From positions 22,457,911-22,521,910 of the forward strand of contig OV121085.1 of NCBI GenBank assembly GCA_921293015.1: a DNA stretch of 64,000 nucleotides. The letters are read 5' to 3'. The notes under the pieces were generated by a model. The model worked only from the letters and a program-made list of their open reading frames with translations, made no database searches and was not told where the DNA came from. Within the stretch, counting starts at the first letter, position 1. The number at the start of each line of letters is the position of its first letter. This document shows positions 6,440 to 47,200 of this stretch, piece by piece. This DNA is from Phorcus lineatus (taxonomy: Eukaryota; Mollusca; Gastropoda; Trochida; Trochidae). The position numbers and the translations under genes were made by a program.

Positions 6440-8262
6440 ATACAAGGATCAGATGCAAGGAACACATACAAGGATATATACAAGGAGTTTGTACAAGGCG
6501 TATATACAAGAATAATGATAATAATGAGTATTTATTAAGCGCTATATCCATGCTCAAAGCGTATATACATGTTAAAGTAAAGGGTAATGGTGTGAAGTTT
6601 TGGCAAGAATAAAATCTAAGAGAAGAGTATGAACACAACTGGTATGATTATAGTTTGGTATATGAGAAAATTCGAATTCTGTGATCGAAGAGTTTTTGTA
6701 GGGATATAGTCATACAAGGTTGTATTATAGGTCTTTGAGTCATTCAACATCTTTGAAATGTATAATGGTGCGGAATTATTTTGACCTTTGTATGTCATGC
6801 AGAGGACTTTAAACTTTATTCTCGCTTCAATTGGAAGTCAGTGTGGTGTACAGGTGTTACGTGACATGATTTAGAAGTTCTAGTCACTATTCTTGCTGCA
6901 GCGTTATATACTAGGAGTATATACAAGGAATACATATAAGGAGTATATACAAGGAGTATATACAAGGCATACATACAAGGAGTAAATACAAGGAGCACAT
7001 ACAAGTAGTATATACAAGGAATACATATAAGGAGTATATACAAGGAATACATACAAGGAGTATATACAAGGAGCACATACAAGAATTAAATACAAGGAGC
7101 ACATACAAGGAGTATATACAAGGAATACATATGAGGAGTAATTACATGGAGCACATACAAGGAGTATATACAAGGAGCACATACAAGGAGTATATACAAG
7201 GAATACATACAAGGAGTATATACAAGTAGTATATACAAGGAATACATACAAGGAGTATATACAAGGCATACATACAAGGAGTACATACAAGGAGTAAATA
7301 CAAAGATTAAATACAAGGAGCACATACAAGGATTAAATACAAGGAGCACATACAAGAATTAAATACAAGGAGCACATACAAGGAGTATATACAAGGAATA
7401 CATATAAGGAGTATATACAAGGAATACATACAAGGAGTATATACAAGGAGCATATACAAGGAATACATATAAGGAGTATATACAAGGAATACATATAAGG
7501 AGTACATGCAAGGCATACATACAAGGATTAAATACAAGGAGTATATACAAGGAATACATATAAGGAGTATATACAAGGAATACATATGAGGAGTAATTAC
7601 ATGGAGCACATACGAGGAGTATATACAAGGAGCACATACAAGGAGTATATACAAGGAGCACATACAAGGAGTATATACAAGGAATACATACAAGGAGTAT
7701 ATACAAGGAATACATATAAGGAGTACATGCAAGGTATACATACAAGGAGCACATACAAGGAATACATACAAGGAGTATATACAAGGAATACATACAAGGA
7801 GTATATACAAGGAATACATAAAGGGGTATATACAAGAAATACATATAAGGGGTACATACAAGGCATACATACAAGGAGTAAATACAAGGAGCACATACAA
7901 GGATTAAATACAAGGAGCACATACAAGGGTTTAATACAAGGAGCACATACAAGTAGTATATACAAGGAATACATACAAGGAGTATATACAAGGAATACAT
8001 ATAAGGAGTACATACAAGGAATACATACAAGGAGTATATACAAGGAATACATATAAGGAGTTATTACATGGAGCACATACAAGGAGTATATACAAGGAAT
8101 ACATACAAGGGGTATATACAAGGAGCACATACAAGGAGTAAATACAAGGAGCACATACAAGGAGTAAATACAAGGAGCACATACAAGGAGTAAATACAAG
8201 GAGTATATACAAGGACTATACTTACAAGCAGTTCATACAAGAAATACGTTTCCGGCGCAGAG
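6440..8262. repeat. 13-bp satellite array
   Basis: The array is built from 13-bp units of the type ACAAGGAGTATAT, ACAAGGAATACAT, ACAAGGAGCACAT and ACAAGGATTAAAT. It starts near 6440, is interrupted by a LINE fragment at 6511-6905, and resumes to about 8262. The invariant core is ACAAGGA. Thirteen is not a multiple of three, so each strand reads the same 39-bp, 13-residue period in all three frames. This produces long overlapping spurious frames (up to 223 codons) on both strands. No start context or splice structure supports a gene. Confidence 0.95.
6511..6905 (-). mobile_element. CR1/L2-like LINE fragment inserted in the satellite
   Basis: On the minus strand the fragment starts near 6905 in the NAAARIVTRTSKSCHVTPVH segment, which is typical of the region after the RT domain. 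It runs through NNSAPLYISKML and ends with the 3' UTR shared with 843-1292 and an aataatgataataatgag tail at 6511. A short extra stretch between ISKMLND and YDYIP, and a truncated end of the ORF, show decay. The 13-bp satellite flanks both sides, so the LINE inserted into a pre-existing array. Confidence 0.8.
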
Positions 8263-20779: not shown

Positions 20780-21400
20780 AACTTATTGCCACTGATGATA
20801 AATCAATTGTTTGTAAAGGAAGAGTTTCTTTAAAATAAATCAATTGTTTATAAATGAAGAGTTTATTTGAAACTGTGGGTAAATTAAATGTTTGTAAATG
20901 AAGATTTTCTTTGAAAGATAAATCAATTGTTTGTAAATGAAGATTTTCTTTGAAAGACAAATCAATTGTTTGTAAATGAAGAGTTTCTTTGAAAGTGAGG
21001 GTAAATCAATTGTTTGTAATGAAGGATAAATCAATTGTTTGTAAAAAAAAGACTTTCTTTCAAAGTGAGGGTAAATCAATTGTTTATAATGAAGAGTTTC
21101 TTTGAAATTAAGAGTAAATCAAATGTTTGTTAATGAGGAGTTTCTTTGAAAGATAAATCAATTGTTTGTAAATGAAGAGTTTCTTTGAAACTTTGGGTAA
21201 ATCGATTGCATGTAAAAGAAGAGTTTCTTTGAAAAATAAATCAATTGTTTGTAAACGAAGAGTTTTCTTTGAAACTGTGGGTAAATCAATTGTTTGTAAA
21301 TGAAGAGCTTCTTTGAAAGATAAATCAATTGTTTGTATGTTAAGAGTTTCTTTGAAAGTGTTGGTACATTAATTGTTTAAGAAGAGTTTCTTTGAAAGTG
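20780..21400. repeat. Degenerate tandem array, about 39-bp unit
   Basis: About 15 units contain AAATCAATTGTTTGTAAATG followed by AAGAGTTTCTTTGAAAG, with spacers gataaatc, tgagggt or ctgtgggt. Units vary in length (about 37-46 bp), so the array is older or less homogenised than the 13-bp and 24-bp arrays. Minus-strand frames (FIYKQLIY-type) are by-products. Confidence 0.9.
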
Positions 21401-21464
21401 AAGATAAATAAAAAATTTGTCAATGAAGATAGAATTTCATTTAAGTTGTGGGACCTCAATGTCA

Positions 21465-21498
21465 TAGTCCACCGGCTACTAGGGGTCCCCATGCACAC

Positions 21499-21530
<32 letters not shown>

Positions 21531-24500
21531 TATGGCAGAACGAAACTAACTTTTTTGAAATCCTTGACATGTCTATCATGAGTGGTAACAGTGTATAAAC
21601 TGAGACGAAATGTGTCACTTATTCTCTGAAGCGTCACACCGAAAGATGGGTGTCCCCATATCTTTGGTTCTAATTATCATAGATCCATAATCTTGGTATC
21701 TAAATGTATGTTAAGAAGGTCACTGAATCCATTGACAGACATTTCAGATAGCTACCATGAGTCATTTGTACGAAATTTTAGGATTCCGTTACAAAAACAT
21801 CTCATTCATGACTTCGATCGGTAACATTTCTGTTTCCTCATCTCTACAGTTAGTGTATATAATTTTATTTTACATTATTTGCACTAAAAGGAGAATTATG
21901 AGTAACTATTTTGTGTACTTATGTGTACTTACGACACACAAATTAAGTGTCCAAAAGCAAACCAAAGGACCTACCGTTATTCTACTATCATTGAAATACA
22001 CCAAATCAGCCTTGGAAAAAAACTATTTTCTCTTCTCTACAGTTAATGTATATCATTTTATTTTACATAATTTGCACTAAGAGGAGAATTATGAGTACTT
22101 GCAACTCTTTTGTGTACTTATGTGTACTTATAACGCACAAATTAAGTGTCCAAAAGCAAACCAAAGGACCTACCGTTATTCTACTAGATCATTGAAATAC
22201 ACCAACTCAACCTTTAAAAAACCTCACAATTTTGTATTTTGAATGTGTTGTTTTACTTCTAAATCATTGGGGATTTAAAGGGATAGATTTAAAGAGTACA
22301 AAGAAGATTCCACATATGTACTAATTCCGTCTTTACACACATCACAGTCATGTAGTAAAGGAGTACATTCTTGCAAGTTATTCATTTTCAATCTCCATAT
22401 GACTGTTTGATTCAGCTGCCTTTTGGACATCACCAATTTATCAAAATCATAGTTTTAAGAGAAAGCATCATCATCAATAACATCACCATTCACCACACAC
22501 CACAACAACCATCATAAGCATTCTCAAAGCTGTCACGTTGCGGGGCCTTGATGTCGACCAACTCTCTAGGAAGAGCGCAATGTCTCTAGCTTCCCATCCA
22601 CAAGTGTCAAACTATGACTCTTATTGGCAACAGGAACAACAGGCATTGGAACATGAGATGTCTTTCTTAGAGCCACTTGTTAATTGAAATGCATTGTATG
22701 ATACTCTAGGCTTTTGATGGTATCATTATAGTGTCCATGTTACATTGTTTGACTCATCTTCACAGCGATAGTCATTCAGTTGCAGACAGCAAACTTTATC
22801 AACATTATTTGTATGCCAGGTCCACCATAGAAAACAAAAATGAAATCCTAATAGGGCTTACATAAGTGATATATATAAGGAAGACAAAATTTTCTGCTTA
22901 ACAACTTTATTTTAAATTTCACGTTCCTGAGTACATTATTACTCCATCAGGTGGGTTGTACGATATATGAATTTTTGTACATATAACCATAACAAGTAAA
23001 CATTAAACAACAGTGAGGAAACATAATTAGCGAGATTAATCATATGAGAATGTAATACAATATAGATTTCCAGTAAATGCAAATATGAAGACACTTAGCT
23101 CAACAAACAAATCTGATGGCACAACCTAAGAGCCACCTGATCTGACAAGAAAAACTTTGAAACTAGCAAGTAAAAAACACCTTGCAATGAGCCTAATGCT
23201 ATATGAGTCCAGTTTCAAGAAGGATAAGGATGCCTGAGAAACAGCTTCCATCCATCTACTTGCTACGCATCCTTATATATACACATTCCATTTGGAATGT
23301 TCCTATGACTATGATATGGTTTTTGTATCTATCATTGTTATGCCATGTGATAGGACACGCCTTCAATGAAACTCCCAGATCAAATGTGGTGATACTGAAT
23401 GTTTGTTGCACCTCTACTCAGCTTTCAGCACACCTTAGGCATTCCCATAAAGTTCTCTATTGAAAGTTACCATAAGATGTCAAACTGTTTGTGTTGTTTC
23501 TAGACTTGGTAAGGAAAGCTACATTACTATAAAGCACATATTGTGTTGATTTGCTGAAAGAAGCACAACTTAACCCCATGGATACATCATATATCTGTGA
23601 TAGTAACGTTAGGCCTTTGGCGGATTGTCATGTAACCACTGCAGTTCTGTTGTCTAGAGACGCAGACACATTTTGTTTGATATATCTTTTGATGAAATTA
23701 CAGCATTGAGTTGCTCATTCCTACGGAGTCTCTCTCAACAGAATGTGTTTTGACAACTTCCACTTACTATAACTTACAGCAAAGAAGATGTCTTGTCATA
23801 ATGATAGCCTCACACCAGTCTCTATTTTGTTTGCCATCAATAGAAAGAGGTTTTGCTTCAAAACTACTAGAATTCTACATGATAATACGCCAAAAACCCA
23901 AACTATTTATGACACATACATTATGTATCAAGGAAGTTAGGCTGTGCTTCTTGAAGCTAGCCTGAAGCAAATGTACACAACAAACTTTCAGTATCACCAC
24001 ATTTGATCTGGGAGTTTCAATGAAGTCCTATCCTATCACATGGAATAACAATGATAGATACAAATGCCTGTTGTTCCTGTTGCTAATGAGAGTCATAGTT
24101 TGACACTTGTGGATGGGAAGCTAGAGACATTGCGCTCTTCCTAGAGAGTTGGTCGACATCAAGGCCCCGCAACGTGACAGCTTTGAGAATACTTATGATG
24201 GTTGTTGTGGTGTGTGGTGAATGGTGATGTTATTGATGATGATGCTTTCTCTTAAAACTATGATTTTGATAAATTGGTGATGTCCAAAAGCTGAATCAAA
24301 CAGTCATATGGAGATTGAAAATGAATAACTTGCAAGAATGTACTCCTTTACTACATGACTGTGATGTGTGTAAAGACGGAATTAGTACATATGTGGAATC
24401 TTCTTTGTACTCTTTAAATCTATCCCTTTAAATCCCCAATGATTTGGAAGTAAAACAACACATTCAAAATACAAAATTGTGAGGTTTTTTAAAGGTTGAG

Positions 24501-25255
24501 TTGGTGTATTTCAATGATCGTAGAATAACGGTAGGTCCTTTGGTTTGCTTTTGGACACTTAATTTGTGCGTTATAAGTACACATAAGTACACAAAAGAGT
24601 TGCAAGTACTCATAATTCTCCTCTTAGTGCAAATAATGTAAAATAAAATTATATGCATTAACTGTAGAGAAGAGAAAATAGTTTTTTTTCCAAGGCTGAT
24701 TTGGTGTATTTCAATGATAGTAGATTAAGGGTAGGTCCTTTGGTTTGCTTTTGGACACTTAATTTGTGTGTCGTAAATACACATAAGTACACAAAAGAGT
24801 TGCAAGTACTCATAATTCTCCTCTTAGTGCAAATAATGTAAAATAAAATGATATACATTAACTGTAGAGAAGAGAAAATAGTTTTTTCCAAGGCTGATTT
24901 GGTGTATTTCAATGATAGTAGAATAACGGTAGGTCCTTTGGTTTGCCTTTGGACACTTAATTTGTGTGTCGTAAGTACACATAAGTACACAAAATAGTTG
25001 CAAGTCTGTCAATGGATTCAGTGACTTTCTAAACATACATTTAGATACCAAGATTATGGTTCTATGATAATTAGAACCAAAGATATGGGGACATCCATCT
25101 TTCGGTGTGACGCTTCAGAGAATAAGTGGCTGAGGGGGGTGACCATGGAAATATGTAAAAATGACACATTTCGTGCCAGTTTATACACTGTTACCACTCA
25201 GATTTGCATAATAGACATGTCAAGGATTTCAAAAAAGTTAGTTTCGTTCTGCCAT

Positions 25256-25286
<31 letters not shown>

Positions 25287-25326
25287 GCATGGGGGCCCCT
25301 AGGGGCCCCTAGTGGCCGGTGGACTA
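21465..25326. mobile_element. Large imperfect palindromic (foldback-type) element, 3.9 kb
   Basis: The left arm from 21465 (TAGTCCACCGGCTACTAGGGG) is the inverse of the right end at 25326 (CCCCTAGTGGCCGGTGGACTA). Both tips have TCA outside (21462-21464 and 25327-25329), a possible 3-bp target duplication. A 31-C run (21500-21530) mirrors a 30-G run (25256-25285). Inverse matches continue inwards, including a run near 22540-22655 matched at about 24060-24180, and 23323-23412 matched at about 23970-24062. The spacer is about 550 bp. The left arm has about 670 bp (22656-23322) absent from the right. A block of about 190-210 bp occurs twice in the left arm and three times in the right. No transposase is visible, so it would be non-autonomous. 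Confidence 0.85.
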
Positions 25327-25329
25327 TCA

Positions 25330-26502: not shown

Positions 26503-29500
26503 GTAATTCACTATTTATAATGATATTGAAGAGGAATATATGGATAAGAACCTGCTATTTCATGATAGTCAAATATATAACCTGGACAACAATTCCTTTA
26601 TGCAAGATACATTCATATGCATTTAAACTTCTGAAATGCTTTCAAGGAAACCCTATCCAATTAGATTATCAATTATTTCTCTTTTCACTCCGATGAAACT
26701 CCTTTCTTTGCTATTCAACCAAACATACTAATTCCCCTCATTGATATGTGCTAATAACTGTGTAAGGCTTAGTCAAATTGACTGTATGAAACCTGATGGC
26801 CTGCTTCTTAAGCTTCCTGTATATGGTATTGGTAAATTTATATATCTTCAGTTATTGTCCGTAAAACACATGATAAATATAAAGCTATCACATGATTATG
26901 ATTTAAGATAACTAAATGTTTTGCTCCAAAGTGTTCACTTATGGTCACGTATTAATAATTTCCAAATATATAGTCTATGTCATGTTTGTGTTTTTTCTTT
27001 GTAAATATAGCAGAGCATTTTCCAAGATACATTTTGATAAATACCCTCATATACTTATTTCCTTAAACGACCGCTAACCTCGACTTTATCACTTCTCGAT
27101 TTTCGTTCAAAGATTTTTCAACAAAATAAAACTGGGCTTGATTTTTGTTAATTTGTCCAATAAACACCTTTAATTAGCCTTTCATTAAGAAAGTGTAATT
27201 ATTTGGCTAGGGGCCATAAAATACGTAATAAACAGACTGTACAGAGTGGCACATTATTATTTCAACTGAAATACCGCCTTAAATAATTGTTTAATTACCA
27301 TTGATGTGGATATCTTTTGTATACCAAACGCTAAATAGTGTTACATCGTCAAATGATTTATCTTACTGAATGAAAACATTCTCTGAAAAGCGTTAAATAT
27401 TGGGGTTTTTTCTGTGATATTTTTGCTATAGATGTATAGATCATGAGGCAATGATTCTGTTTATGATGTCACAAAAAGGGCGTGTGACCAGTCATGCATT
27501 CACTGGTTTGTGGCAAGATAGATCCAAGCGGACAATCAAAAGTGACATTCAAAAACGGCTTTTAGTACCAAACTGAACATATTTGAGTAGCGACCTTTGA
27601 CTATACTCTACAATATTGTAATTAGACATTCATATATTCCAAAGAAAATAGTGAAATACGTTTGTGGTTATGTAAACTTTAAAAGGACAATTATATATAG
27701 CTGTTACCTAGCCATTTTATCAGAGAAAGTAACGTTTTTTATTATTTGAAATGTGATGAGCACTATAGTTTTTCTAATTTGACATTTTTTTTCTGTAGGA
27801 AGACTTCTGTATTGAGTATCCAGTTACAGGATTATTCATCTTTAGACAGATCTACAGGAGCTTGTCATGCTGTAGATCATACCTTTACCTCATTAATATC
27901 ATAGAAATAATAATAGCCTGTTCCTTGTTGTTTCCATTTCCCCATCTCGCCTCATCTCACCATACCCCGACACACCTTTCCCAAACTCATCTCAACTCAC
28001 AACACCACAACCAAACTCACCGCACGGCAATTCACCTTACCCCATCTAGGTCATATAAAAATCCCCACAGAAGAATGTTGTAATTCATAATACCAAGTCT
28101 TTGACATAAAAGTTGTTAATATATCTTTCATAACTAGAAGGCTTTATTGTGTCAAAAAATCATAGCATATTGTATAGAATTACTAACATATAGAAAAGCG
28201 GTAGACTATTGTGACCCATGCAAATGCTATTGCGATAGTTTTGGATCCAATCATAACTTTTTTCCAGCTGGATTTCCAAAGATTCTATAAGGACCATTTG
28301 ATTGATAAAACAATCTTGAGTCATTTTTCACCAAATGCAAACAGGTTTCACCACTTATAAGGAAATTTCTCATCTTGAACATTTAGAAGTCAAATGAATT
28401 CAAATGGTGTCGATAGTTTACTTTGCCATGGATGTATTGATAGTGTTTTCATGGTTTCGATAGTTTACTTTGCTATGGTTGTATTGATAGTGTTTTCATA
28501 GCGTCGATAGTTTACTTTGCTATGGATGTATTGATAGTGTTTTTATGGTGTCGATAGTTTACTTTGCTATGGATGTATTGATAGTGTTTTTATGGTGTCG
28601 ATAGTTTACTTTGCTATGGATGTATTGATAGTGTTTTCATAGCGTCGATAGTTTATTATGCTATGGATGTATTGATAGTGTTTTTATGGTGTTGATAGTG
28701 TACTATGCTATGGATGTATTGATAGTGTTTTTATGTTCCCTATTGGTAGAGTACTATTAGAAAGATGACCGTTGCAATTTATAGTAATAGTTTGTTATAC
28801 CATTAAACCCTTAAGAATTGGTTTTAATAGTTACATCCTAGATCCTCAAAAGCATTTCATTTCTTTAGTGAATAATGGTAAGTAACTGTAATAACAAAAA
28901 CAGTAAGAAAATAAATTGTCAAATACATGAAAAGAATTTTTGTGTGCATATTTTGACTTCGAAAAACTTTTTTGATTTAGACAATAGCCTATTAGCAAGT
29001 AAGAGATTTGTTAACTTTATGTTCAAACTGAATTTTTCAATTTGTATTATTAAACTTGAAATTATTACTTACCTATAAGCAAGTTACATCTAAATTGCTG
29101 GAAAATTGTAAGTCAAAGAGAAAAATTTATGCTTAAGGAAGAATAAATTGACAGTCTGATTGAAGTCGAACGTGTTCCGAGGAATAATTTAAAGAAAAAA
29201 TTGACTCTGGTGGCATTAGTATGCATTCTACCAGGGGCTTTCCTCTCCACAACGGTTTGAAAGCATCCTTACTGGCACGTTCTGATGTAATCTCAACTAG
29301 CCTATCACAAAGACTCTAGCAAAAGCCTTCAGTGTCAGTATGTAGGGGTAAGTAACTCCCGTTAACCATTCCATAAACTTGATGCATTTGAATTCCAATA
29401 GAGTCACCTTTTAGTAAAAAATTATTCCTCCAAACTAGCATTTTGCATGGTGAAACTACAGTACAATAGTCATGTGTCTCTGTATTCTGCAGGTTGTCCG

Positions 29501-32500
29501 GAAAGAGAGCGGGGAGGAGAGAGTGGTGATAACATACAGCGACTTGTTTGGTGTCTTGGGAGAAGACATTGACCCGGTGTCCATCACTCTCTCCTGTGAT
29601 GGTGTCTGCAGAGTCTACGTCCTCTTCTGTGCCTCACTGTCATATCAGCTTGTCAATGAAGGCACATTTGATGCAAAAACATTTGTTAAAATCCTGAAAC
29701 AATTTCAAAGGAGTACAGTGTTCTGTAGTGGTATTCCTCCTCAAATGATTCCTTCAGAACAAACGAATCGTCCTGATGAATTGAAAACCCATGTTCAGCC
29801 CTTCCTTCGCCATCAAGCAAAGAACTGCGTAATCTACTATAAAACAGATATTGAGATTGCAGAAAAAAATGGACTCTGTCAAAATTGTCAACTTTTGCTT
29901 CAGAAATTGAAAAATCTTGTTCCTTCACAGACATTGCTAGGGGAATTGTGTACAAGCCCTGCTGGTGCAGTGAGCAACATTCCGACTACCGTGTGTGAGC
30001 TGGAGGTAAAACTAGAACCTGTTGGTCAGGAGGTTGAGGGGACACGCCCTGCATTCACAGACATCCTCCTATCTTCCCTCTCCCCCTCCACCTCCATCTC
30101 CACCTGCACACAGGAACTTGTTATTGCTGCCTTGAATGCTGGTAATTGTCAAGAGGTGTCAGGGGATGCGAGTGAGGTTCAAGAGATGTCAGGTGATGCG
30201 AGTGAGGTTCAAGAGATTTTAGAAGATGCGAGTGAGGTTCAAGAGATGTCAGGGGATGTGAGTGAGGTTCAAGAGATGTCAGGGGATGTGAGTGAGGTTC
30301 AAGAGATGTCAGGTGATGCGAGTGAGGTTCAAGAGATGTCAGGTGATGTGAGTGAGGTTCAAGAGATGTCAGGTGATGCGAGTGAGGTTCAAGAGATGTC
30401 AGGTGATGCGAGTGAGGTTCAAGAGATGTCAGGGGAAGCTGAGTCAGGTGAGCTTGGGGAGCAGACTGTAGATCATATCAAGGTTGAGCCAACTAGTGCA
30501 TCTGAATTACAAACTGAAAATATTCTTGAATGTTCCATATCCAGTTCCCAAACATCTCGAGTATGTGATCATAGAAAGGAAAAATTGTACACCAAACAAG
30601 AAATGAACACCAAACCGGAAGTGAACACCAAACCGGAAGTGAACACCAAACCGGAGATAGACAAAACAACAGAGATAAACACAAGATCAGAGAGAGACAT
30701 CAAAACAGAGATGGACACCGAGGAATACTCTGAAGTAATATCACATGCCAGGTATCCGTATGTTGCCAAGATCAGTACAGTGCGTAAAAGGAAACAAAAA
30801 CCTGTTAACAAATCCCCTAAAACAGGCAACAACAGCATTGTGGTTGTGAAGAAGAAAACAAGGTTAGGTTATGAATGTATGACACCATTGGCAAGTAAAA
30901 CAGAACAGACTTCATCAGAAAGTACCGAAGTCAAATCATCATCATCGATGAACAAAGTTGTGGAACCGTTAGCTAGGACCTTAGTACAGACTGTGGTAGA
31001 AAGAAGCACAATGGAGATTTCATCAGCAAGTAACACAGTGGAACCGTCACCAGAAAGTACTGAAGTCAAGATTTCATCAGCGAGTAACACAGTGGAACCA
31101 TCACCAGAAAGTACTGAAGTCAAGATTTCATCAGCAATAAACAATGGCAGGATGCCAAAAACTGATAAAATTGTTGAGTTGCTACAAACAGTTGTGAAAC
31201 CACAGACTTTTAATGTCAAAATGCCATTAGATAATGATATGTTTGTTATGAAACCAGTAACAAAAAGTTCATATGACCTATTACGAATCTACAAGGGACA
31301 GGAGAAGCCATCATCTACTACCTACGCGGTCCGATTACCATCACCACTAACCACCCAATATCAAATGCCCCAATTGCCTAGTAACAAAAATGGAAAACCA
31401 CCAATTGGTCACTTAGAGGGAATGACACAAATTAGTAATGCTATCAGGATGCAGATAACAGATAAGTTGAATGGGTTGCAACCGTCAAGAAAAGGCCAAC
31501 ACTTGAAGCTGGTAGCACAAGGCCAAACTTTGTATGGTCAGCCACAAGTAGAGCACAATGGACTACATCTCCTAACCTCAGTTCTAGGTTCACATCCAAA
31601 TGTATCAGATCCGATTGTTTCAAATCCAAGTGTATCTGATGAAGGTGTACCAAAAGCAAGCTCAGCAGGGGAAAACAAGAAGTGTGTACCAGTGCCAGAG
31701 CCAGAGGTTGACGACGTGAAACTGTGTGCCCAGTCCCTCATTGAGCTGGCCAACCAGCGCCCTGCAGCTGCACTAGGTATGTCTCTCAGTGGGAAGCACC
31801 TCTTGGCTCCTTAAAATGTTCAATAGAGATAAATTGCCTGTTTCATGAATCCTTTTAAGTTTAACAAAATAAATAATAAGATAATAAATTCCTACATCTG
31901 CCATTGATATTTGTTGGAGTACAAGCTGTTATGATGGATGGTAAAACCCCATGAGTAAAACGGTCATTGTCCAGAGTCCGTTCGCTTCTGACATTTCGCA
32001 CTGCTATAAATGCTATTTAGAGTGAGAGTTTCAGTGTTTAGTGAGCAGGTATTTTGTAAGTGAAATTATTCAAGTTTGTTAACACCAAAACTTGTGCTAA
32101 ACACCAACTCACTCAAGTAATTAGATATACTGTCAAAAAAAGTATCATAATTTTGAAAGTTGCTGACTGCTTGAAACATAAGGAGTCAAATCTTCTTAAC
32201 AATGTAAAGTTTAAAGAAACTAAAAGTTTTCCAAGACCTGCATGATTGACTAAAAGGGATGATACATTATGAAATTGGTGATTGTCCAGAACCATGATAG
32301 GGATCACATCAGCAATGCTTAGAAATTTGAAGTGTGAGTATGAAACCCTAAACAAAATAAAATCTACTTCACCTTGTCAGCTACAGGACATATGGCTACA
32401 TTTATAGAATTATGGCATTACATCCGGCCATCTGTTCACCCATAAACTCTCAACTATTTCAACTTCTTCTCCAAAACCATTGACTCAAGATATCTGAAAT

Positions 32501-33572
32501 CTTGTGTACGGACTCCTTGACTAATAAGGTTTTTAATTTTTCAATTTTTCAGTTTGGTAACCCTTTGACCCCACATGGGCCACAACCTTAAAAACTATTT
32601 TCATTTTCTTATCCAGAAGCAATAGGCTTGAATCTTGTGTACAGACCCCTCAGGTGCTGTGTATTCTAATTCGTAGATTTGATGATCCTATGTCAGCTCA
32701 TATGGGGACTTTGTGACCATTTACAAAATGAATTGATGATAAACTGATGAGCTACAGAGTCAGTGGCTGTATTTCTATATCATGTCAATTACTGACAAGT
32801 TATTAACGAGTGAATGCTCAGTTTGAAAATCACAAGTTGACCAGTGTTGTCATTTCTTTCCCAATAACTTTTCACACCTTGCTACATGTAAGCATCTGAC
32901 TGGGCTCCAGATCACGCCGTCTGGGTAGATACCAGTTTAACGTTTATAGTAATTAAAACATTTAAGTGACATTTTCTCTTGCTGTCCCCAGGTATCCCCA
33001 CAACTGTCACTGAGCTGAAGGAAATACCAGAGTTTAAAGAAGTGAAATTACAGAAGAAGAAGAATGAAGGCCATGCCCAGTGTCCAGTCTGCTTTGAGTT
33101 CTACAGCAGTGAGACGGCCCTCCTCAGACATGTGCGCATTCACAACGTGGATCGACCCTTTAGCTGCCCCGTCTGCAACAAGTCCTTCGGGCAGAAGATC
33201 ACTATGAAGGTGCACATGCGTCTGCACACAGGGGAGAAACCTCACCAATGTTACATCTGTGAGAGATCCTTTGCGCAGAAGAGCAACATGGAGACACACG
33301 TGAGACGTCATCTTGGTCTGCGACCATTCAAGTGTGAGCACTGTGGGAAGGGTTTCAGTGATAAGGGCACTCTGGACGAGCATGTGAAGACACACACAGG
33401 GGACCAGCCTTATCTGTGTGTTGTGTGTGGCAAGTCCTTCAGTCAGCGGTCGCACATGCGCACTCACATGAAACGTCACCATGACAACAAAACGCCTTAT
33501 GCATGCAAGAAGTGCACAAAGTCCTTCAAGAACAAGGAGAGTTTAAAGCAACACGTTGAGTCCCATGAATGA
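26383..33572 (+). CDS. Six-finger C2H2 zinc-finger protein, 994 aa, three exons
   Basis: This is probably a nuclear DNA-binding regulator; the target is unknown. Exons are 26383-26502 (phase 0), 29493-31776 and 32992-33572 (TGA). Together they give 995 codons in frame with AG/GT borders (GTAATT, GTATGT). Residues 1-130 form a compact, domain-like N-terminus (VSLFILKSGDFDDLDF, SDLFGVLGEDIDPVSITL) that I cannot name. Residues about 259-353 are a tandem decapeptide SGDASEVQEM, acidic, about ten units. Residues about 400-440 have short TKPEVN repeats, followed by Ser/Thr/Pro-rich disorder with two ASNTVEPSPESTEVK units. Residues 832-993 carry six C2H2 fingers; linkers include TGEKP and TGDQP. The start is the first in-frame ATG after a stop; further 5' non-coding exons are possible. 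Confidence 0.85.
26503..29492 (+). other. Intron 1 of the zinc-finger gene
   Basis: This intron of about 3.0 kb contains an A/T-rich unannotated stretch, a C/A-rich stretch at 27940-28050, and the 47-bp tandem array at 28406-28735. The acceptor is ttctgcag at 29485-29492. An acceptor-like tttttttctgtag occurs near 27787-27799, but the sequence after it soon meets stops. Confidence 0.6.
28406..28735. repeat. 47-bp tandem array in the zinc-finger intron
   Basis: About seven units of GTGTCGATAGTTTACTTTGC then TATGGATGTATTGATAGTG and TTTTTATG or TTTTCATA. Units are well conserved, so the array is fairly young. It lies in intron 1 of the zinc-finger gene. Confidence 0.92.
30150..30435 (+). repeat. 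Coding 30-bp minisatellite in exon 2 of the zinc-finger gene
   Basis: About ten units of 30 bp encode SGDASEVQEM or SGDVSEVQEM (one unit reads LEDASEVQEI). Variation is limited to a few positions (GCG/GTG, GGT/GGG). Units are near-identical, so copy number probably varies between individuals and changes the length of an acidic segment in steps of ten residues. Confidence 0.92.
31777..32991 (+). other. Intron 2 of the zinc-finger gene
   Basis: Bounded by GTATGT (31777) and ccccag (32986-32991). The stretch 32440-32710 contains twice the pattern cttgtgtacgga/cttgtgtacaga and gaccccac-like blocks. It resembles the dispersed repeat near 47753-48070, so it is probably an old repeat. Nothing coding is seen. 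Confidence 0.6.
32992..33572 (+). CDS. Zinc-finger gene, exon 3 (all six fingers)
   Basis: Encodes a basic linker (KLQKKKN) and six C2H2 fingers beginning CPVCFEF, CPVCNKSF, CYICERSF, CEHCGKGF, CVVCGKSF and CKKCTKSF. Spacing is C-x2-C-x12-H-x3/4-H throughout, with all zinc ligands present. The stop TGA is at 33570-33572. The whole DNA-binding part on one terminal exon is common for such genes. Confidence 0.95.
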
Positions 33573-34200: not shown

Positions 34201-35110
34201 TAAACTGGAAAATATTCAAATGCATCTAACTTACTAAATGTGCATGCAGAACTTAATTGTACATTGACCTAGTCTTCTGCATTGCCAATATTAGCTGTTA
34301 TCAGTGAAGTTCAGCAACATTAGCCTTGGCTTATAACAGGATTGTTTGGGGGTTTGAAATCTGAACGTTAATAGGGTTAATTCCCTACCTCAGACTGGGA
34401 GGTATGATATGAGACTTATGATGTCACCTTGCCTCTATGATTTTGTTAAGAATGTATCTATGTTTACCATTTTGAAACCAACACAGTGAAAGTTAGCTTT
34501 TGTGTGCTCCTTTTTTGTATGTCCCCAAAATAAGGCAGTGAAAAAAGAATACAAAATATGCATGTACCAATATATAGCTTTGAGCAGATGTTTTGGCCTG
34601 GATAACATAGGTACTTCCTTTACTTTCTGCTGCTATGAAGGTGTATTATCCACCCAGTGAAGTTGGGTCTTGTGGTGTTGGGGTGGGATAGCACATCACC
34701 TTACCTCTTAAGTTTTTACTTTTTCATAAATTCTATATGTAGCTGTTCCAACTGGGTGTGTTTTCGTCTAGCAATCCATCAAATGCTGGCGTCGTCCATA
34801 AGTCCGTCCATCATCCATTCTCATTTCATGGGAAGCTGAAATCTTGTGCACTGACTGCATGGGCAATGCGACATATCAAATTTGGTTTTAGTTACCCTAT
34901 GGCAACTAATGATATCCTAACGATAAGACCCCCCCACCTATCCCCCTCCCCCACACCTTTTTCTGTTTCTCCTGAGGAAATGCACACTAAATGTATGATA
35001 ACTTCGTATGGTATGACGACCAATGGCCAATCGAGATTATGAATTGCAGTTCTGGTGATGGTCTTACTCCTGATAAGGGCCTATTTCAACCTCCGAAAAA
35101 GTAAATATTC
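34201..35110. other. Intergenic, probable old dispersed repeat
   Basis: No exon is recognised. The stretch 34760-34930 contains cgtccataagtccgtccatc and gggaagctgaaatcttgtg, similar in type to the repeat downstream of 47753. Nothing else is supported. Confidence 0.35.
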
Positions 35111-35962: not shown

Positions 35963-36640
35963 AACGCGGTTACAAGAATCCTGTACGTTCCTTGTCTCCT
36001 TGTGAAAACTGTCACCAGGATCCTGTACGTTCCTTGTCTCCTTGTGAAAACTGTCACCAGGATCCTGTACGTTCCTTGTCTCCTTGTGAAAACTGTAACC
36101 AGGATCTTGTATGTTCCTTGTCTCCTTGTGAAAACTGTCACAAGAATCCTGTATGTTCCTTGTCTCCTTGTGAAAACTGTAACCAGGATCCTGTACGTTC
36201 CTTGTCTCTTTGTGAAAACTGTAACCAGGATCCTGTATGTTCCTTGTCGCCTTGTGAAAACTGTAACCAGGATCTTGTATGTTCCTTGTCTCCTTGTGAA
36301 AACTGTCACCAGGATCTTGTATGTTCCTTGTCTCCTTGTGAAAACTGTAACCAGGATCTTGTATGTTCCTTGTCTCCTTGTGAAAACTGTCACCAGGATC
36401 TTGTATGTTCCTTGTCTCCTTGTGAAAACTGTCACCAGGATCCTGTATGTTCCTTGTCGCCTTGTGAAAACTGTAACCGGGATCCTGTACGTTCCTTGTC
36501 TCCTTGTGAAAACTGTCACCAGGATCCTGTATGTCCCTTATCTCCCCGTGAACACTGTAATCAGGATCTTGTATCTTCTTCATCTCCCCGTGAACACTGT
36601 CACGGGATTCCTATATGTTCCTTGTCACCCCGTGAACACT
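35963..36640. repeat. 42-bp minisatellite, about 16 units
   Basis: The unit is CTTGTGAAAACTGTCACCAGG then ATCCTGTACGTTCC and TTGTCTC. Because 42 is a multiple of three, several frames on both strands stay open for more than 200 codons: + SPCENCHQDPV and KTVTRILYVPCLLV types, - TVFTRRQGTYRILV type. Units near 36535-36640 are more diverged. No splice sites or domains outside the array support a gene. One + frame shows mainly synonymous differences between units; see findings. Confidence 0.93.
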
Positions 36641-38262: not shown

Positions 38263-41200
38263 CTGTAACTGTATAACGCTCTCTTATGTTAGTCACTGTT
38301 TCTTTTCTTTCTGTTGGAGGTAAATTGTCATAACCAACTAAACTATCATAAACTTTTTGAGAAGTTGATCTGTCAAGCAGATTCAAAGTGCTTTATGTCA
38401 TGTAACAGACGTGAACAACGCTCAGTTTGACTGACCAAGAGTGAGTTTTATTGTAACGTGATTGGTTAAACATAGTGTTCACGTGATACATCACATGACG
38501 ATGTAAAGACATTCTATTAATAGAAATAGATTATGTCACATCTCCCTTCTTTAATGAGAAGATATACTGAAGTATGATAAATGCATTATGATATTGATTT
38601 TAATAAAGTTGATATTAAATGATTATATTCAGAGTTCTTGTTTCTTCCTCGTCTTCAAAGATTGAGAATGTCACAGAGAGCTATCTTCATAAACTGCATC
38701 ATATCTGCATCAGGTCACAGTTCATAATGTTCCACAAGTCACTGTTCATGAGTTTTCAGGTATTACTGTTCATGAATGTAATAAAAGAATTTAAGAATAT
38801 ACTACACAATTCACTATAGGTTCAACTCCAATAATAAATTGATGAATAATTAGAGTCTTTCACTTTCATCACTAAGTAGAGTGTAATATTTGAGTCAATC
38901 ATGTTGGTCATGTTATTTTCACTGATAACACAGAACTTTGAAATAAGAATACTTAATAAAAACTTGAAAATTGAATACTTTCAAACAATTAACAATACCC
39001 TAGATGGGGATTAGAGGTTACCAGCACTTAACCCAAAGTTGGAATCAATCATTGCCATTGATTCTTTAGATGAAAATATTTAACATTTACTGCTTGATGG
39101 GGTCAGAGGTCACTAGTACTTAACCCACCGTTGGAGTCAATCTTTACCATTGACTCGAGATGACATGGCACACTCATAGTCACTGTACTTGACAGGTTTT
39201 TTCACAAGTCTTCCAGAGCGTGTAGTGATCTCATCTGGTGATCTGGGTGATGGCTGAGTAGTCGGCTTCGCTGGGAATGGTTCGTCAAGCAGGTAGGTTT
39301 GGTTGATTTCATCAGGTTGTCGACTTCTTGTCGTAGTTGGCACTTTGTGGAGATCACGCCGGTTTCGCCGTAGTGTCGCGCCGGTGTCGGTACTCACTAT
39401 GAAGGATCTGGGTGTGTGATAGTTCTGTACTACTGTGGCAGGTTCCCAAGTATCACCGCGTTGTAGTTGAACTCTGTCATCTTGATGGAGGGGAGATAAC
39501 TCCTTACTGCCTCTGTTATAGTACTTGGCCTGGTTGCGCTGCTTACTCTGGAGTTGAGTGAAAGCGTTGGATACTACTTCAGGCTGAAGTAGTGTTGTAG
39601 CTGTGGGGAGCTTGGTCTTCAGTCTTCTGCTCATTAGAAGCTGTACTGGTGATGCATTCATTCCTGAAATGCATGAATTTCTTAGATTCATTAGAGCAAG
39701 ATAATAATCTTTACCTTCCTCTGTAGCTTTCTTCATAAGTCTTTTGATGGTCTGTATGGCTCGTTCTGCCATTCCATTGGACTGTGAGTAGGTAGGGCTC
39801 GATGTTTCGTGCTGGAAGTTCCAATTCTGTGCGAACTGCTTGAACTTGGCGCTGGAGAATGGCATGTTGTCAGACACAACTTTATCAGGTATACCGTGTC
39901 TTGCAAATATGGCTTTCAGCGATGTGATGACAGTCTCAGTGGTCTTGTTTCTCAGGTTGCTGATCTCGATGAATTTCGAATAATAGTCTACCACTAGGAG
40001 GTAGTTGTGAGAGTTGAATTCAAAAATGTCTGTGCCAACTGTCTCCCACGGTCTCTTGGGTACGTCATGGGAAATCATCGGCTCCTTTGTGTTGGATCGT
40101 CTGAACTTGAGACAGGTTTCACATCTCGAGATGATATCTTCAATGTCTTTTGACATTCCTGGCCAAAACATGACTTCTCTGGCTCTTGATTTGCACTTCT
40201 CTATCCCTAGATGTCCTTCATGAATTATCTTCAACATGTAGGCCAGTCGAAATTTCCCAAAATTTAAGTGAACCCGGACATTTTCGATAACAGACAAATG
40301 ACTTGAAAAAATGAAAGATTACATGTCCCTTACCCTCTGAAAAAAACCCAACCAAAATCAACCATGGGCAAAAATAGTTATGGCCACTTGAAAATGTACC
40401 TAAAAGTTGTGCAGAAGCCTCTCCATAAAAGATAAGTTGTGTGACTAGTATCACCAGAGTTATCTCCCTTCATGGCAACTGCCAAAATGGCCGACATTGT
40501 CGTTGACAACAAAAGTTTAGAAGCGGTATTTTATGACTTTTAAAACGAAAATTGTTAATATTTTTTAGGGAAAAGTATTTTGACAATTAGCTAAATGCTT
40601 TTGTCTATGCAGATACCATCAAATAAACATATTTTTCGTGCTTGAATTATCTATATTTTAACTTTGTAAATTGACTACTTCATCTTCATAAAAGCCTTTT
40701 CTACGAGAAATTATTGTGAACTACTATTGTAATTATAAGATAAAAGTTAAAGCATATGATTTATCTATTCAATTTCCTTTGAAACATTGAATAGATAAAT
40801 TGGGGGAAAGTTCACACACCTCTAAAAAGGCTAAGCATGCCATCCTACTGATACTACTTTCTCGCTGACTTATTTCTTATGAAGAAGCGTCTGTTGATTG
40901 ATACCTATTTACGATCATTTGAAGTTAACATTAACTCAAAATTGAATATTATATTGAATTTATTAATCTTTCCAATGCTAAAAATAGTAACTAGAGAATA
41001 AATAGGTTATAACTATAGATATTTCTGTCAGTCAATTTCGGCTTTAGACAATACCAATTTGGGTTATTCATGCAAAGTTACAAAAAATATGTATATTAAT
41101 ATATAAACAGAAATTTAATGATTTTCATTTAACTGTAAATTTATCTCCCTAGGCTTGTATTTTATAATGACCAACCTACATTGACAAAATTTAATGTCCC

Positions 41201-44200
41201 ACTAATTTCATAACTCATTGACCCAAGGCCTTCGTCATCTCAAAAGTTAATTAGGATCTGCTAATAAATGCACAAATCAGTTCTGACATAATAATTAAAA
41301 TGCTATCAGTATTTATCTAACACTAAGAATTTACGATTAAATATTCTATGTTGAACATATTACTTAGATTAATTAAACTACAAAAATGTCAATACTTTTC
41401 CCCACATCAAATGTTCTAAAATTTTAATTGCTTTTTACAGAACCATGAATCTCAAAGCGTCTTTCAACCCCATTTATCATTAAATGAGACCTTACAGCTA
41501 AACTCAATTTTTTTTAACTCGAAAGCATGCTTGGTTGACTGAGTATCACTCAAATAATTTGAAAAGGTATGATAGTTTAGAGAAACTGATAATTTGTTAA
41601 TCCAGTGAAATGCATAAATCTCTCAGCATCATTTGTGAATCTAACAAACACGGAGATATTCCCTCCGGTGTGCTCAGTGCTTCACATCTAATAAAGGCAT
41701 AAGTGCACACCAATATTTCGTATAACCAACAAATGCACAGATAATGAATATCTCTCGATTACTAACGATCATAATTCATTTACAATACTTATACTACATT
41801 TTTAAAATTGATTATGTTATAAGATTGCTTCAATATACAATATTTCATCACTTATTTTCAGTTCAGAGTTTAGGTAATTTCAAAAGCTACACACATTACT
41901 AGTTTAGCCGTTTTCAGCTGTTCAACTGTTCATATTCTTAGTGCACAGCTGACCATAGATTCAAATATCTCTAAGCTGACTTCAGCTGTCTTAAGTGTTT
42001 TCATTGTTGATTACAGGTCAGTTGTAAAGAATAATAAGTAGTTTACTGCATCGATTGAAAGCATAAGTAAGTGCTTATATAATCATATGCCTTAAAAGAG
42101 CCAATTTGAAGCGAAAAAGCGTGCTATAGTACCTTTAAGCACACGATTCTCTGCAGATTCTGGACAATCATCAATGTCTTTACCATTTTATGAAATTTTA
42201 ATGGATCCAGGAAAAAAAGTTAGAATATTTCATTCTTCGAAAAACATTATCATTGAAGATCAAGGGATATCTCCTAGTAGATATTGTTTTGACAGTAGAT
42301 TTTGAACAAAGCCCTGTTACAGTCAAATTCATGACATCACAATTGTTTTATATCATCAAGTAATGACATGACAATGCTATGACGTCATAAGCATGACGTC
42401 AGTGATATGACTTCACCGCACTGAGAGTCTAAGAGGAGTGTTCAGAAATATACATTTTACATGGAATCAAAATGATTTTGGATGATAAACATAATCTCAC
42501 CCTTGTGTCGTCTGATATCAAATATATCAACATGAGTCTATAAAAGTAAAAATATCCGAGGCAATTTTTATAGAATCGTGTTGATATATTTGATATCAGA
42601 AGACACTTTGGTGAGATTCTCTATTTGTAGCATGGGGTAGATAACAGATTCTGAAAATTGACTCATTTAAATCTGAAATTCAGACATTTTTGAAGATCAA
42701 TCAGGGGCTTTGAATTAAGGGATACTTATTTCTGATGCAAAGTAATCTAGGAAATGTCAATAAAGACTATATTTTTCAACAAATATATTTTTCGTAAAAG
42801 GATTCCTATTTTTTATATCAACCCCTCTAAAAAAGACATGTTATTCAGTCAATAGTAATAATAGCCTTTAGAAGTATGTCCTGTTGCTAGATCTTAAATG
42901 GTAATTGCACATAAGTGTTTTTGTTCAATAAATAAACGTTTTATAAATGTTCCAATTTTCTTTGATGTTTCATATTTTTTATCAAAAAAAAGACATGATG
43001 TTGAACCATGAGCATAAATGACCTTTAAAAGTATGTAATATTGCATGATCTATCATTCTAATCACTACAACATTTTATTTTTCAACATGAATACTTCTCA
43101 TAAAATATTCCAATTTTCTTTCATTTTTTATGCTTTTTCACCCCAAAACAGACATGGCGTTAAATCTACAACAGAAATGAACTTGGGAATCATGTAATGT
43201 TGCACCATCTATCATTCTAGCCAATTCAAAAGTTTTTCCTGCAATACATATATTTTTAAATAAATAATTCCTAATTTCCCTTATTTTTTAAGGTTTTTGC
43301 CCCAAAAATACATGTTGCCCATGGTTGATTTTGGTTGGGTTTTTCATGGTTCATCAGCACTGCTAAAAGGACCATTTAAAAACAAAATTTGTCTGTTATC
43401 GAAAATGTCCGGGTTTTTCATGATTTCTACTGGCCTAATGTCGGATCTCAGGTTCTGGGGAACGATGAGCTTGTCTCCTACAAATATCAGTCCATCCATT
43501 TCATGGATTTCATCACATATGTTCCAATAAGCTCTGCTTTCTGGTGGCGCTTCCCATCTGTGTGTTGGCCATCCTTCTTTGATGAGCTTACGTATTTCTT
43601 GTTGAACCGTGTCGTTCTCAGATTCTTGTTGGAATTGTGTTTTCCTCTCATCGCTCATGGGTAGGTTTGCTGTTACAGTGTGAATCATGATCTTTGCTTC
43701 TTCATTGATAGTCTCGTCACTTTCACATTCTGGCAGATAGGCTCTTGAGAGGGTGTCTGCTATGTACATGTGTTTTCCTGGCACATAGCACACATCTAGT
43801 TGGTATTTTTGTAGACGCATCATCATTCGTTGCAATCTTGGAGATGCCTTGTGCAGTGGTTTTCGCAATATGGTTTCAAGTGGTTTGTGATCACTCTCAA
43901 CATGCACCATCTTGCCGTAGATGTACTGGTTGAACTTCTCACAGGCGAACACAATTGCCAAAAGTTCTTTTTCAATTTGAGCATAGTTCGTTTCTGCTGA
44001 AGTGAGGGCTCTGGACGTATACACGACTGGGTGACCGTCTTGAAGTAAACATGCTCCTAATCCGTTCTGTGAAGCATCTGCTTGAATGGTGACTGGTTTG
44101 TTGACGTCATAGAACTTGAGGACTGGTTTACTTGTCAAAATGTTTTTCAGCTTGTCTAGTGCTTGGTCGTGTTCATGTTGCCATGTCCAGGCTGTATCCT

Positions 44201-47200
44201 TCTTCAGAAGTTCACGAATTGGTGCGGTTGTCTCACTCATATTTGGAATGAACTGAGAGAGAAAGTTAATTGTCCCTAGAAATCTCTGCACATCTTGTTT
44301 ATTTTCAGGCTTTGGCATATCCACAATTGCTTTGATTTTTTCAGTGTCTGGTTTCATTCCAGTTGATGTGATGATGGTCCCAAGATATTTCACCTCTTTT
44401 ACCCTGAGTTGAATCTTGTTTTTGTTGAATCGAACTCCTGCCTTCCTCGCTCGCTCCATGACTTGATGAAGAATTCTGTCATGTTCCTCTTCATCAGAGC
44501 CTGCGATGATCATGTCATCAGACACCATGCCATGTTGACACCTTGTATGTCTCCGAATGTCTCATGATTCTTTCGTTGGAAGACTTCACTTGACGAGCTG
44601 ATTCCAAATGGCATACGCCGGAAACGATATCGTCCGAAAGGAGTGTTGAAAGTGCATAGGTATGAGCTCTCTTCATCTAACTCCACGTGCCAATATCCAT
44701 CCTTTTCGTCCAAGATTGAGAAGATTTTCTTTCCTGCTAGCTGTGCTGCAACATCTTCTGCTGTAGGAATCTTGAAATGTTCTCTTTTTATGGCTCTGTT
44801 TAGGTCTTTCGGGTCTAGACATAGTCTCAGTGATGCGTCTGCCTTCTCTACGATGACTAAGCTATTTACCCAATCAGTTGCTTGTTCAACTTTGGCGACA
44901 ACATCATTCTTTTCAAGTCTGTCAAGTGTTTCCTTCAATTTGTCGTGCATGCTATATGGTACCTTGCGTGGTGGATGAATAACTGGTTTCACTGTCCGGT
45001 CGAGTTCAATGTGATATTTTCCACTGAAGTGGCCTAGACCTGTGAAATTGTCACCATATTCTTTAATCAGGCTTTCTTTGGTCACTTGGTGGATGTGTTT
45101 ATTTCTTCGAACAAGTCCAAGTTCAGTGCATGTTGACAAACTAAGCACTGGTGGTTAACTTACATCAGCTATGATGAACTCTAAATCATGTGACTGTGAT
45201 CCATTTATCTGACATGGAAGAGTTGCTTCCCCTACAACAATGAGGTCATTGTTACCATATCCTGACAAACGCACTGATGAAGGTCTCATCTGTTTCTTGC
45301 AATCTAACTTGCTGAAAACTTGTGAAGGAATGACATTAGCGTCTGCACCCGTATCCAATTTGAAATTGACATTCTTTCCAAGAATGTTTACACTTTCAAA
45401 CCATGATGAATTTGAACTGTCAATACTGTCAACATTTATTGTTCCTACAAACAGGTCTTCGATCAAATCACTGACAGAATTGTCTTCTTCCAAAGAATGA
45501 ATTTTCTTTGAATATTTACCTTTTGTCTTCTTCTCGGTTTGATTCATGTGAGAGTTTAGCAAAACACTGACTTGTGAGATGGCCCCTCAATTTACATCTT
45601 GAACATGTTTTTCCAAATGCTGGACATTCCATACTGCTGTGTGTAGTTCCACATCGTTTACATCTGAAAGTCTTTTTGTCTGAATGTTTCTTCTTATTTT
45701 GATGTTTTCTCACAACATGCATTGATTTATCATGTGTTTGTGTCAAACTAATTTGCGCGGCACTGGCTTCCGCTGCACGGCACATTTCAACTACACGTTC
45801 AAGTGAATGATCGGCAGAATCTCTCAATAAACGTTCTTTTAATCGTTCGTCAGTCACACCAAACACAATTCTATCACGAATCATCAAATCTGTTTGAGCA
45901 CCGAATTCACATGATTTCGCGCGGTTTTTCAGTTCAGTGATATATCTGTCAATCGACTCACCCTGTTTCTGTTTCTGTTCCCAGAACAAATAGCGTTCAA
46001 TCACTGTATTCTTTCTTGGGTTACAGTAATCTTCGATCTTCGCTATCACAACGCTGAACTTTTTGTCGTCACCTCGGTTTTCCCAGTTGAAGGTATTGTA
46101 CACTTCCACAAGGTCATCTCCGCCGCAGTGCAACAAAATGGCGACCAACGTTTCGTCGGGTTTGTCATCTGACCCCGATGCTGTCAAATAGAGCTTAAAT
46201 TTTTGTATCCATCGTTTCCAGTTTTCGCTGACATTACCTTCGAACAATAAAGGCTCTGGTATCCGATATCTGTCCATTTTGTAGCGATTTCTTTGATTAT
46301 TTCTGACACCATGTAACAGACGTGAACAACGCTCAGTTTGACTGACCAAGAGTGAGTTTTATTGTAACGTGATTGGTTAAACATAGTGTTCACGTGATAC
46401 ATCACATGACGATGTAAAGACATTCTATTAATAGAAATAGATTATGTCACATGTCAAATTGATTTTTCTGATACTATTCAACTTATCATCCAAAACAAAG
46501 ATGTAGACTCGTGTCAAAACCTTTCTTAGAAGTTGTACTTAGAGTTGAATGGCAAAACGAACTTCCTTCGCATGTCATCACTCGTGCCAGTTTCTATCGC
46601 GTGCTACTTACAACCTTTCTGGTAAGCGATACAATTTATGGTTTTAGCACAACGCTTTTTTCGTCCATAGGTTGCAATCTTAATAAGAATTCTCATTTGA
46701 CTATCAATTTCTCTCTCAGTTGCCTAGAGAAGAGATACGATAATTTTGGGAATGACCGGTCATTAGGACTGGCACAATTGATGCCTAGAGAAGAGATAAC
46801 ACTTTTTGAAACATGCCTAGAGATGAGAAACAAGTTTCGGGAATGACCAGTCATTAGAACTGGCACAATTAATGCCTTGAGAAGATATGGGCGTTTTGGG
46901 GATGACCGGTCATTGGGATTGGCACAAGACATGCCTAGAGAATATATAACAATTTTTGGAAATGACCAGTCATTAGGACTGGCACAATTCATGCCTAGAG
47001 AAGAGATGACCATTTTTGGAATGAACACAAAGAACTTGAACAAGCCACACCTTGTGGGGAGTTGTTGTTGAACAGGAATAAAAATGTCTTGAATAATGAA
47101 GGAAAGTACTTTTAAGTCATGAGAATAACACGCCCTAAACTTATTTTTATCTTCTGTTCCAGAAGCTAGAGACCTACAGAGCTTTTAAACATTTCCAGAC

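Follow-up and report, generated by a model that had tools for sequence, protein, structure and literature searches.

Among the closest described comparators to the family reported here is Galileo, a P-superfamily element of Drosophila that shares with it very long and internally repetitive TIRs, a foldback appearance, derivatives made of two TIRs, and chimeric copies, but for which the portions of PMC3573991 drawn on here give a known transposase and duplications of 7 bp, whereas the duplications in our family are of 3 bp, a transposase was not found in our searches, and C/G runs lie at the border of the tips. The Foldback/FB4 elements of Drosophila are likewise non-autonomous and palindromic with modular copies, for which template switching has been proposed, and the sections of PMC2955051 and PMC8277862 considered here make no mention of a run-bordered tip with clustered junctions, as is present in our family. 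Template switching with microhomology in the repair of TIR elements, as proposed for our family, is also a feature of Pack-TIR gap filling and FoSTeST, though the cases in the part of PMC8277862 used here are better fitted by breaks within the element, while our junctions crowd at the termini beside a G-run. Finally, the G4-induced deletions of C. elegans (dog-1), as portrayed in excerpts of PMC4654259, resemble our junctions in having one breakpoint at a G-tract and the other at a variable position, there at a distance of ~50-300 bp, and in sometimes having templated inserts; unlike those deletions, the G-tract here sits in a transposon end, and there are inverted, long-range joins too.

The element lies in a 64-kb stretch of DNA that was analyzed as a whole (the window), in which it forms an imperfect palindrome of ~3.9 kb running from TAGTCCACCGG at 21465 to CCGGTGGACTA at 25326 (Table 1), with each of these exact 11-bp tips having 1 occurrence in the window at 0 mismatches. 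Ungapped pairing between the left and right arms reaches 100% over 231 nt, 99% over 228 nt, 98% over 169 nt, 97% over 125 nt, and 99% over 118 nt, the outer blocks being weaker, and a palindrome with mirrored runs of this kind far exceeds chance expectation; elsewhere in the 64 kb there is one C/G run of at least 7, consisting of 7 C at 34929. Sequence and arm pairing bear out the initial annotation, which had described a palindrome with TCA on both sides and runs of C31 and G30 near the tips, and which had counted blocks of ~200 bp twice on the left arm and three times on the right, where we see two and nearly three (about 2.6), respectively. The left segment of ~670 bp that it had called private is indeed left-only in the window copy, but it is not private, being carried whole or in part by L049, L100, L109, and other copies, and on these grounds we regard it as ancestral arm sequence that was lost from the right arm of the window copy, and its reading as a foreign insertion was rejected. 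Pieces of other copies aligned to the window copy by BLAST are mostly 85-97% identical. Runs of 30 and palindromes are prone to sequencing error, and the window copy has both, but that either of them is an artifact of sequencing or assembly is very improbable because the arms are not identical, with substitutions and indels between them, both copies of the target duplication are preserved, and copies with the same plan stand at independent loci; an assembly inversion was rejected on the same differences between the arms.

Table 1. Parts of the palindromic element and their positions in the window.
Feature	Position	Strand	Evidence
Target duplication, left copy (TCA)	21462..21464	+	Sequence; 3-bp duplications in 17/18 family loci
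Left tip, TAGTCCACCGGCTACTAGGGGTCCCCATGCACACA; outer 21 bp at 323 genome sites (up to 2 mismatches)	21465..21499	+	Sequence, genome search
C31 run; proposed synthesis block, in which a poly-G template would be met by synthesis from the left flank	21500..21530	+	
Left arm, with two ~200-bp repeat copies at about 21830-22221	21465..22647	+	Arm pairing
Left-only segment, 674 bp; missing in right arm of window copy, present in other copies, taken as ancestral	22648..23321	+	
Centre of longer relatives (common junction 23726/23161)	23162..23726	+	
Inner arm block, left; 93% complementary to 23978-24064	23322..23408	+	
Inner arm block, right side; pairs with 23322-23408	23978..24064	-	
Right arm, with about 2.6 copies of ~200-bp repeat (24484-25005)	24063..25326	-	
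G30 run, C30 when read inward from right tip	25256..25285	+	
Right tip, with additional partial tip-motif copy (CTAGGGGCCCCTAGGGGCCCC)	25286..25326	-	
Target duplication, right copy (TCA)	25327..25329	+	Sequence

The window element belongs to a mobile family with hundreds of copies. When the genome (957.8 Mb in 74 contigs) was searched with the 21-bp tip TAGTCCACCGGCYACTAGGGG, allowing up to 2 mismatches, 323 sites were found, 160 forward and 163 reverse, as against 0 forward and 0 reverse for the reversed-sequence control, and a second tip pattern at up to 3 mismatches gave 435 sites versus 0 for its control. Identical 3-mers flank the tip pair at 17 of 18 two-tip loci (20 facing tip pairs checked), and the duplicated 3-mers are varied, including TAT, TAA, TTA, ACA, CAT, CTA, AAA, TTT, AAG, ATT, and TCA. 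Flanking 3-mers are not identical at L081 (41-105), an element of 65 bp that is barely more than two tips and a C-run, and at L125 (34-148), which has two tips and a C-run in 115 bp between TTA and TAA and which is an exception read after the 18-locus check. An empty site corresponding to the L036 copy is found in a related repeat within L049 (7268-7326), where there is a single TAA; the other three of the four paralogues that span this site are diverged at it, and only L049 is clean. The initial annotation had proposed a foldback-type mobile element whose tips should be sought elsewhere in the genome, and the recurrent tips, the C/G runs in part of them, and the 3-bp duplications agree with that proposal; the empty site that it had also asked for exists in the family, but it concerns L036 and not the window locus with its TCA.

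The foldback type is seen both in the long inverted arms, which form most of the window copy, and in a junction common to its longer relatives, and it is seen also in the dispersed copies with a constant 3-bp duplication and an empty site. A query with window positions 23410-23977 produced 105 candidates, of which 40 were scored, and 56 matches, and the plan of these relatives is one of ~1.7-kb arms about a ~0.56-kb centre, with the junction of Table 1 common to L099-L102, L106, L107, and a subfamily L109-L115, each relative having been read in part. In all seven fetched members of this subfamily the centre has lost 110 bp, corresponding to 23404-23513 of the window, and many of the listed matches to the query show the same range. 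In the window copy, stop-to-stop frames extend to 114 and 116 aa at most, and, as judged from the frames tested in part of the copies, the element apparently makes no protein. The arm repeats of several copies (L016, L017/L054, and L025) are traversed by open frames of 154-217 aa, with the longest, of 217 aa, in L054; these are possibly due to chance or a coding remnant, and the six such frames tested gave 0 Pfam domain matches at E 0.1.

With respect to superfamily, PIF/Harbinger elements have a 3-bp target duplication that is often TWA, and membership of our family is possible by duplication length, with the 3 bp fitting and with TAA or TTA present in 5 of 18 matched tip pairs and other 3-mers in the rest. 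PIF/Harbinger transposase domains are very abundant in the genome (826 first-look candidates), and of the 150 DDE_Tnp_4 matches listed, none was seen by eye to sit within 10 kb on the inner side of any tip in the tip lists, both lists covering part of the total, while one match lies 5.9 kb away on the outer side of a tip. A transposase for the family was likewise not found among the frames and listed domain matches that were compared with the tips. The CACTA/EnSpm elements have a 3-bp duplication as well, but their termini, CACTA or CACTG, rule them out, as the terminus here is TAGTCC; a CACTA domain search gave 10 matches, four with frames of 861-920 aa, and none of them near a listed tip by eye. 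The 3-bp duplication also rules out the P superfamily, to which Galileo belongs and which has duplications of 7-8 bp, and the Mutator/foldback elements (Tm1-like), in which the target duplication is about 9 bp. Foldback/FB4 differs from our family in its tips and its duplication. A Tc1/mariner assignment, with duplication of TA, was rejected on the identical but varied 3-mers outside TA...TA ends at 17 of 18 loci and on the empty site in L049, which is without an extra TA. The tip pattern had 0 matches in viral and prokaryote contigs, Rfam gave 0 matches, and a literature search with the tip strings returned no transposon-titled paper, judged by titles; going by titles and the opening lines of abstracts, there was no described family with such tips, and within the literature so searched this is a foldback family unmatched to any described one.

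What is new in this family is a clustering of fusions at the border between the tip and the run, where 64 of the 95 tips read lack the normal subterminal sequence and are fused to something else, most of them at 21-33 bp from the end or inside the C-run; in 53 cases the partner is a different arm position, joined in either of the two orientations. The 95 distinct tips are part of the 323 sites, and 81 of them match the 21-bp pattern without edits; because most were picked by this conserved pattern, any break closer to the end would escape notice, and the sample leans toward young copies. Normal subterminal sequence, consisting of the C-tract or its remains followed by ATGGCAGAACGAAACTAAC, is retained in the other 31, of which 21 keep collinearity as far as 300 bp and the other 10 are broken over the ~240 bp that come after the tip and run. 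Among 58 tips scored for the end of the tip match, 56 lose it at 21-33 bp, where the lower limit is set by the search pattern and the upper by the string compared, while the contrast with the next 300 bp is set by neither, and 11 of the 58 breaks occur at 25-26 bp, short of the run, either within GGGGTCCCC or just at its end. Nine tips of the variant lineages CCAATAGGGG and CCACAAGGGG were read later, two of which keep normal subterminal sequence (by eye), and the variant-lineage tips of L125, L127, and L128 break directly after C-runs. A view of the tips as better conserved than the interior was dropped, as variation is also seen in the four tips that were located by way of the interior (L103, L107, L117, and L119).

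The position of these breaks bears on a reading of the copies as ordinary internal-deletion derivatives, in which 21-33 bp would suffice for transposition, deletions would fall anywhere, and selection would keep the tips, with the run being irrelevant. This accounts for the absence of shorter tips, for minimal copies such as L081, and for the lack of a run in most broken tips as they now stand, but it predicts inner breakpoints along the whole 1.7-kb arm, whereas the breaks of 64 of 95 tips lie inside the tip or run, with another 10 over the next ~240 bp, and we consider it improbable. The tip-border C/G runs are instead likely to be the break points at which copies are cut back and reshuffled, although the causal role of the run is inferred. 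The run reads as C inward at both ends, so a strand synthesized inward from either flank copies a poly-G template. Within the first 90 nt, a C-run of at least 10 is present in only 28 of 95 tips and a G-run of at least 10 in 0 of 95, and the runs are not fixed inside the termini, as had been supposed at first, since a C-run of at least 10 occurs in 19 of the 31 normal tips and 5 of them lack any of at least 6, which makes the tract recurrent and variable in length. A C-run of at least 6 in the first 90 nt is kept by 13 of the 64 broken tips and absent in 51, so for these 51 the presence of the run in their ancestor is presumed, and this weighs against a causal run, as do the 11 breaks at 25-26 bp.

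Of the broken tips, the 53 that re-enter the arm (match of at least 60 nt) do so at positions 81 to 2180, with 28 joins in the same sense and 25 inverted; the remaining 11 enter sequence with no arm match of that length and were left out of the junction statistics. Same-sense joins fall within 350 bp in 16 of 28 cases (P 2e-7 versus uniform), and several, at positions 81-102, delete just tens of bases, a point against a causal run, whereas only 3 of 25 inverted joins are this close (P 0.72 versus uniform) and the class is spread to 2.2 kb. The two orientations differ at the 350-bp cut (Fisher P 0.0013) and at a 250-bp cut (13/28 versus 1/25, P 0.0005), both cuts having been chosen post hoc with the data already seen. 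Microhomology of 1-6 nt is present at 15 of the 53 junctions, with at least 2 nt in 17% compared with 5% expected at random, and filler of 0-59 nt is present at 38, being C-rich (239 of 498 filler bases are C). The same-sense class resembles the ~50-300-bp G4-induced deletions described in the excerpted PMC4654259, and its excess within 350 bp, together with the fillers, fits a replication-only G4 fragility, in which polymerase-theta joining at the runs would make small deletions with no excision or gap repair. This explanation is unlikely, as the 25 inverted joins, reaching 2.2 kb, are not readily given by short end-joining alone, nor are the copies of their own host flank that two of 17 complete copies, L002 and L041, have captured. 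At the right end of L002 the tip continues to CACC and is followed by the inverted own left flank back through ATT and the tip, with ATT common to the outer tips and not to the inner pair, while the right end of L041 consists of ~20 nt of tip, a repeat of its own right flank together with an 18-nt filler, and a second occurrence of the tip. A simple deletion does not make such ends, but template switching at the tip/run border would. Tip motifs are also re-copied in L013, L067, and the right tip of the window copy.

Taken with the short deletions, inverted jumps, and fillers, the two flank-capturing copies suggest stalling and template switching, and the reading that we favor, at a probability of roughly 60%, is that in this apparently non-coding foldback family with 3-bp duplications the C/G run by each tip stalls synthesis entering from the flank, and that repair would then weld the 21-33-bp tip to a new and mostly intra-element position. 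A transposase would act in trans on the tips, and, after excision or fork stalling, synthesis would copy the tip, meet the poly-G template, which is G-quadruplex-prone, and stop, whereupon it may end-join slightly further in or switch template. The inverted long-range joins would need another template, for which the opposite arm would serve; the palindromic arms are templates in both orientations, which would explain tips around arbitrary and often inverted arm fragments. Breakpoints near the element termini, as seen here, are the pattern that PMC8277862, in the part used, expects of excision-coupled abortive gap repair. A stronger version, in which the C-inward run would serve the transposon as an inbuilt means of shuffling, its poly-G template forcing the polymerase off after ~30 bp at each tip and continually making mini-elements around arbitrary, inverted, or host-derived fragments, is tentative and on balance doubtful. 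The origin of miniature, scrambled transposon copies is usually inferred from few junctions, while here there are hundreds of tip sites in one genome, most of the tips read end in a fresh junction adjoining a candidate physical cause, and G-tract-triggered template switching in transposon repair becomes countable and testable, connecting the biology of G-quadruplex deletions with the way in which miniature elements arise.

An AT-rich 39-bp tandem array at 20797-21398 stops about 65 bp before the left tip. A probable C2H2 zinc-finger gene is located at 29454-33572, with an upstream open frame of 786 aa that includes ten copies of a 30-bp coding repeat and that had no Pfam match and no relative in a protein search. 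On the minus strand, the remnant of a Gypsy-like LTR retrotransposon with integrase, RT, and RNase H domains in several frames is found at 39137-46358, and LINE-like reverse transcriptase frames with RVT_1 and zf-RVT domains are found at 57086-60283. Together with the C2H2 zinc fingers, these two kinds of reverse transcriptase mark the genome as animal-like. Long minisatellites occupy 6905-8241 (26 bp), 35978-36640 (42 bp), and 55357-55873 (24/148 bp).
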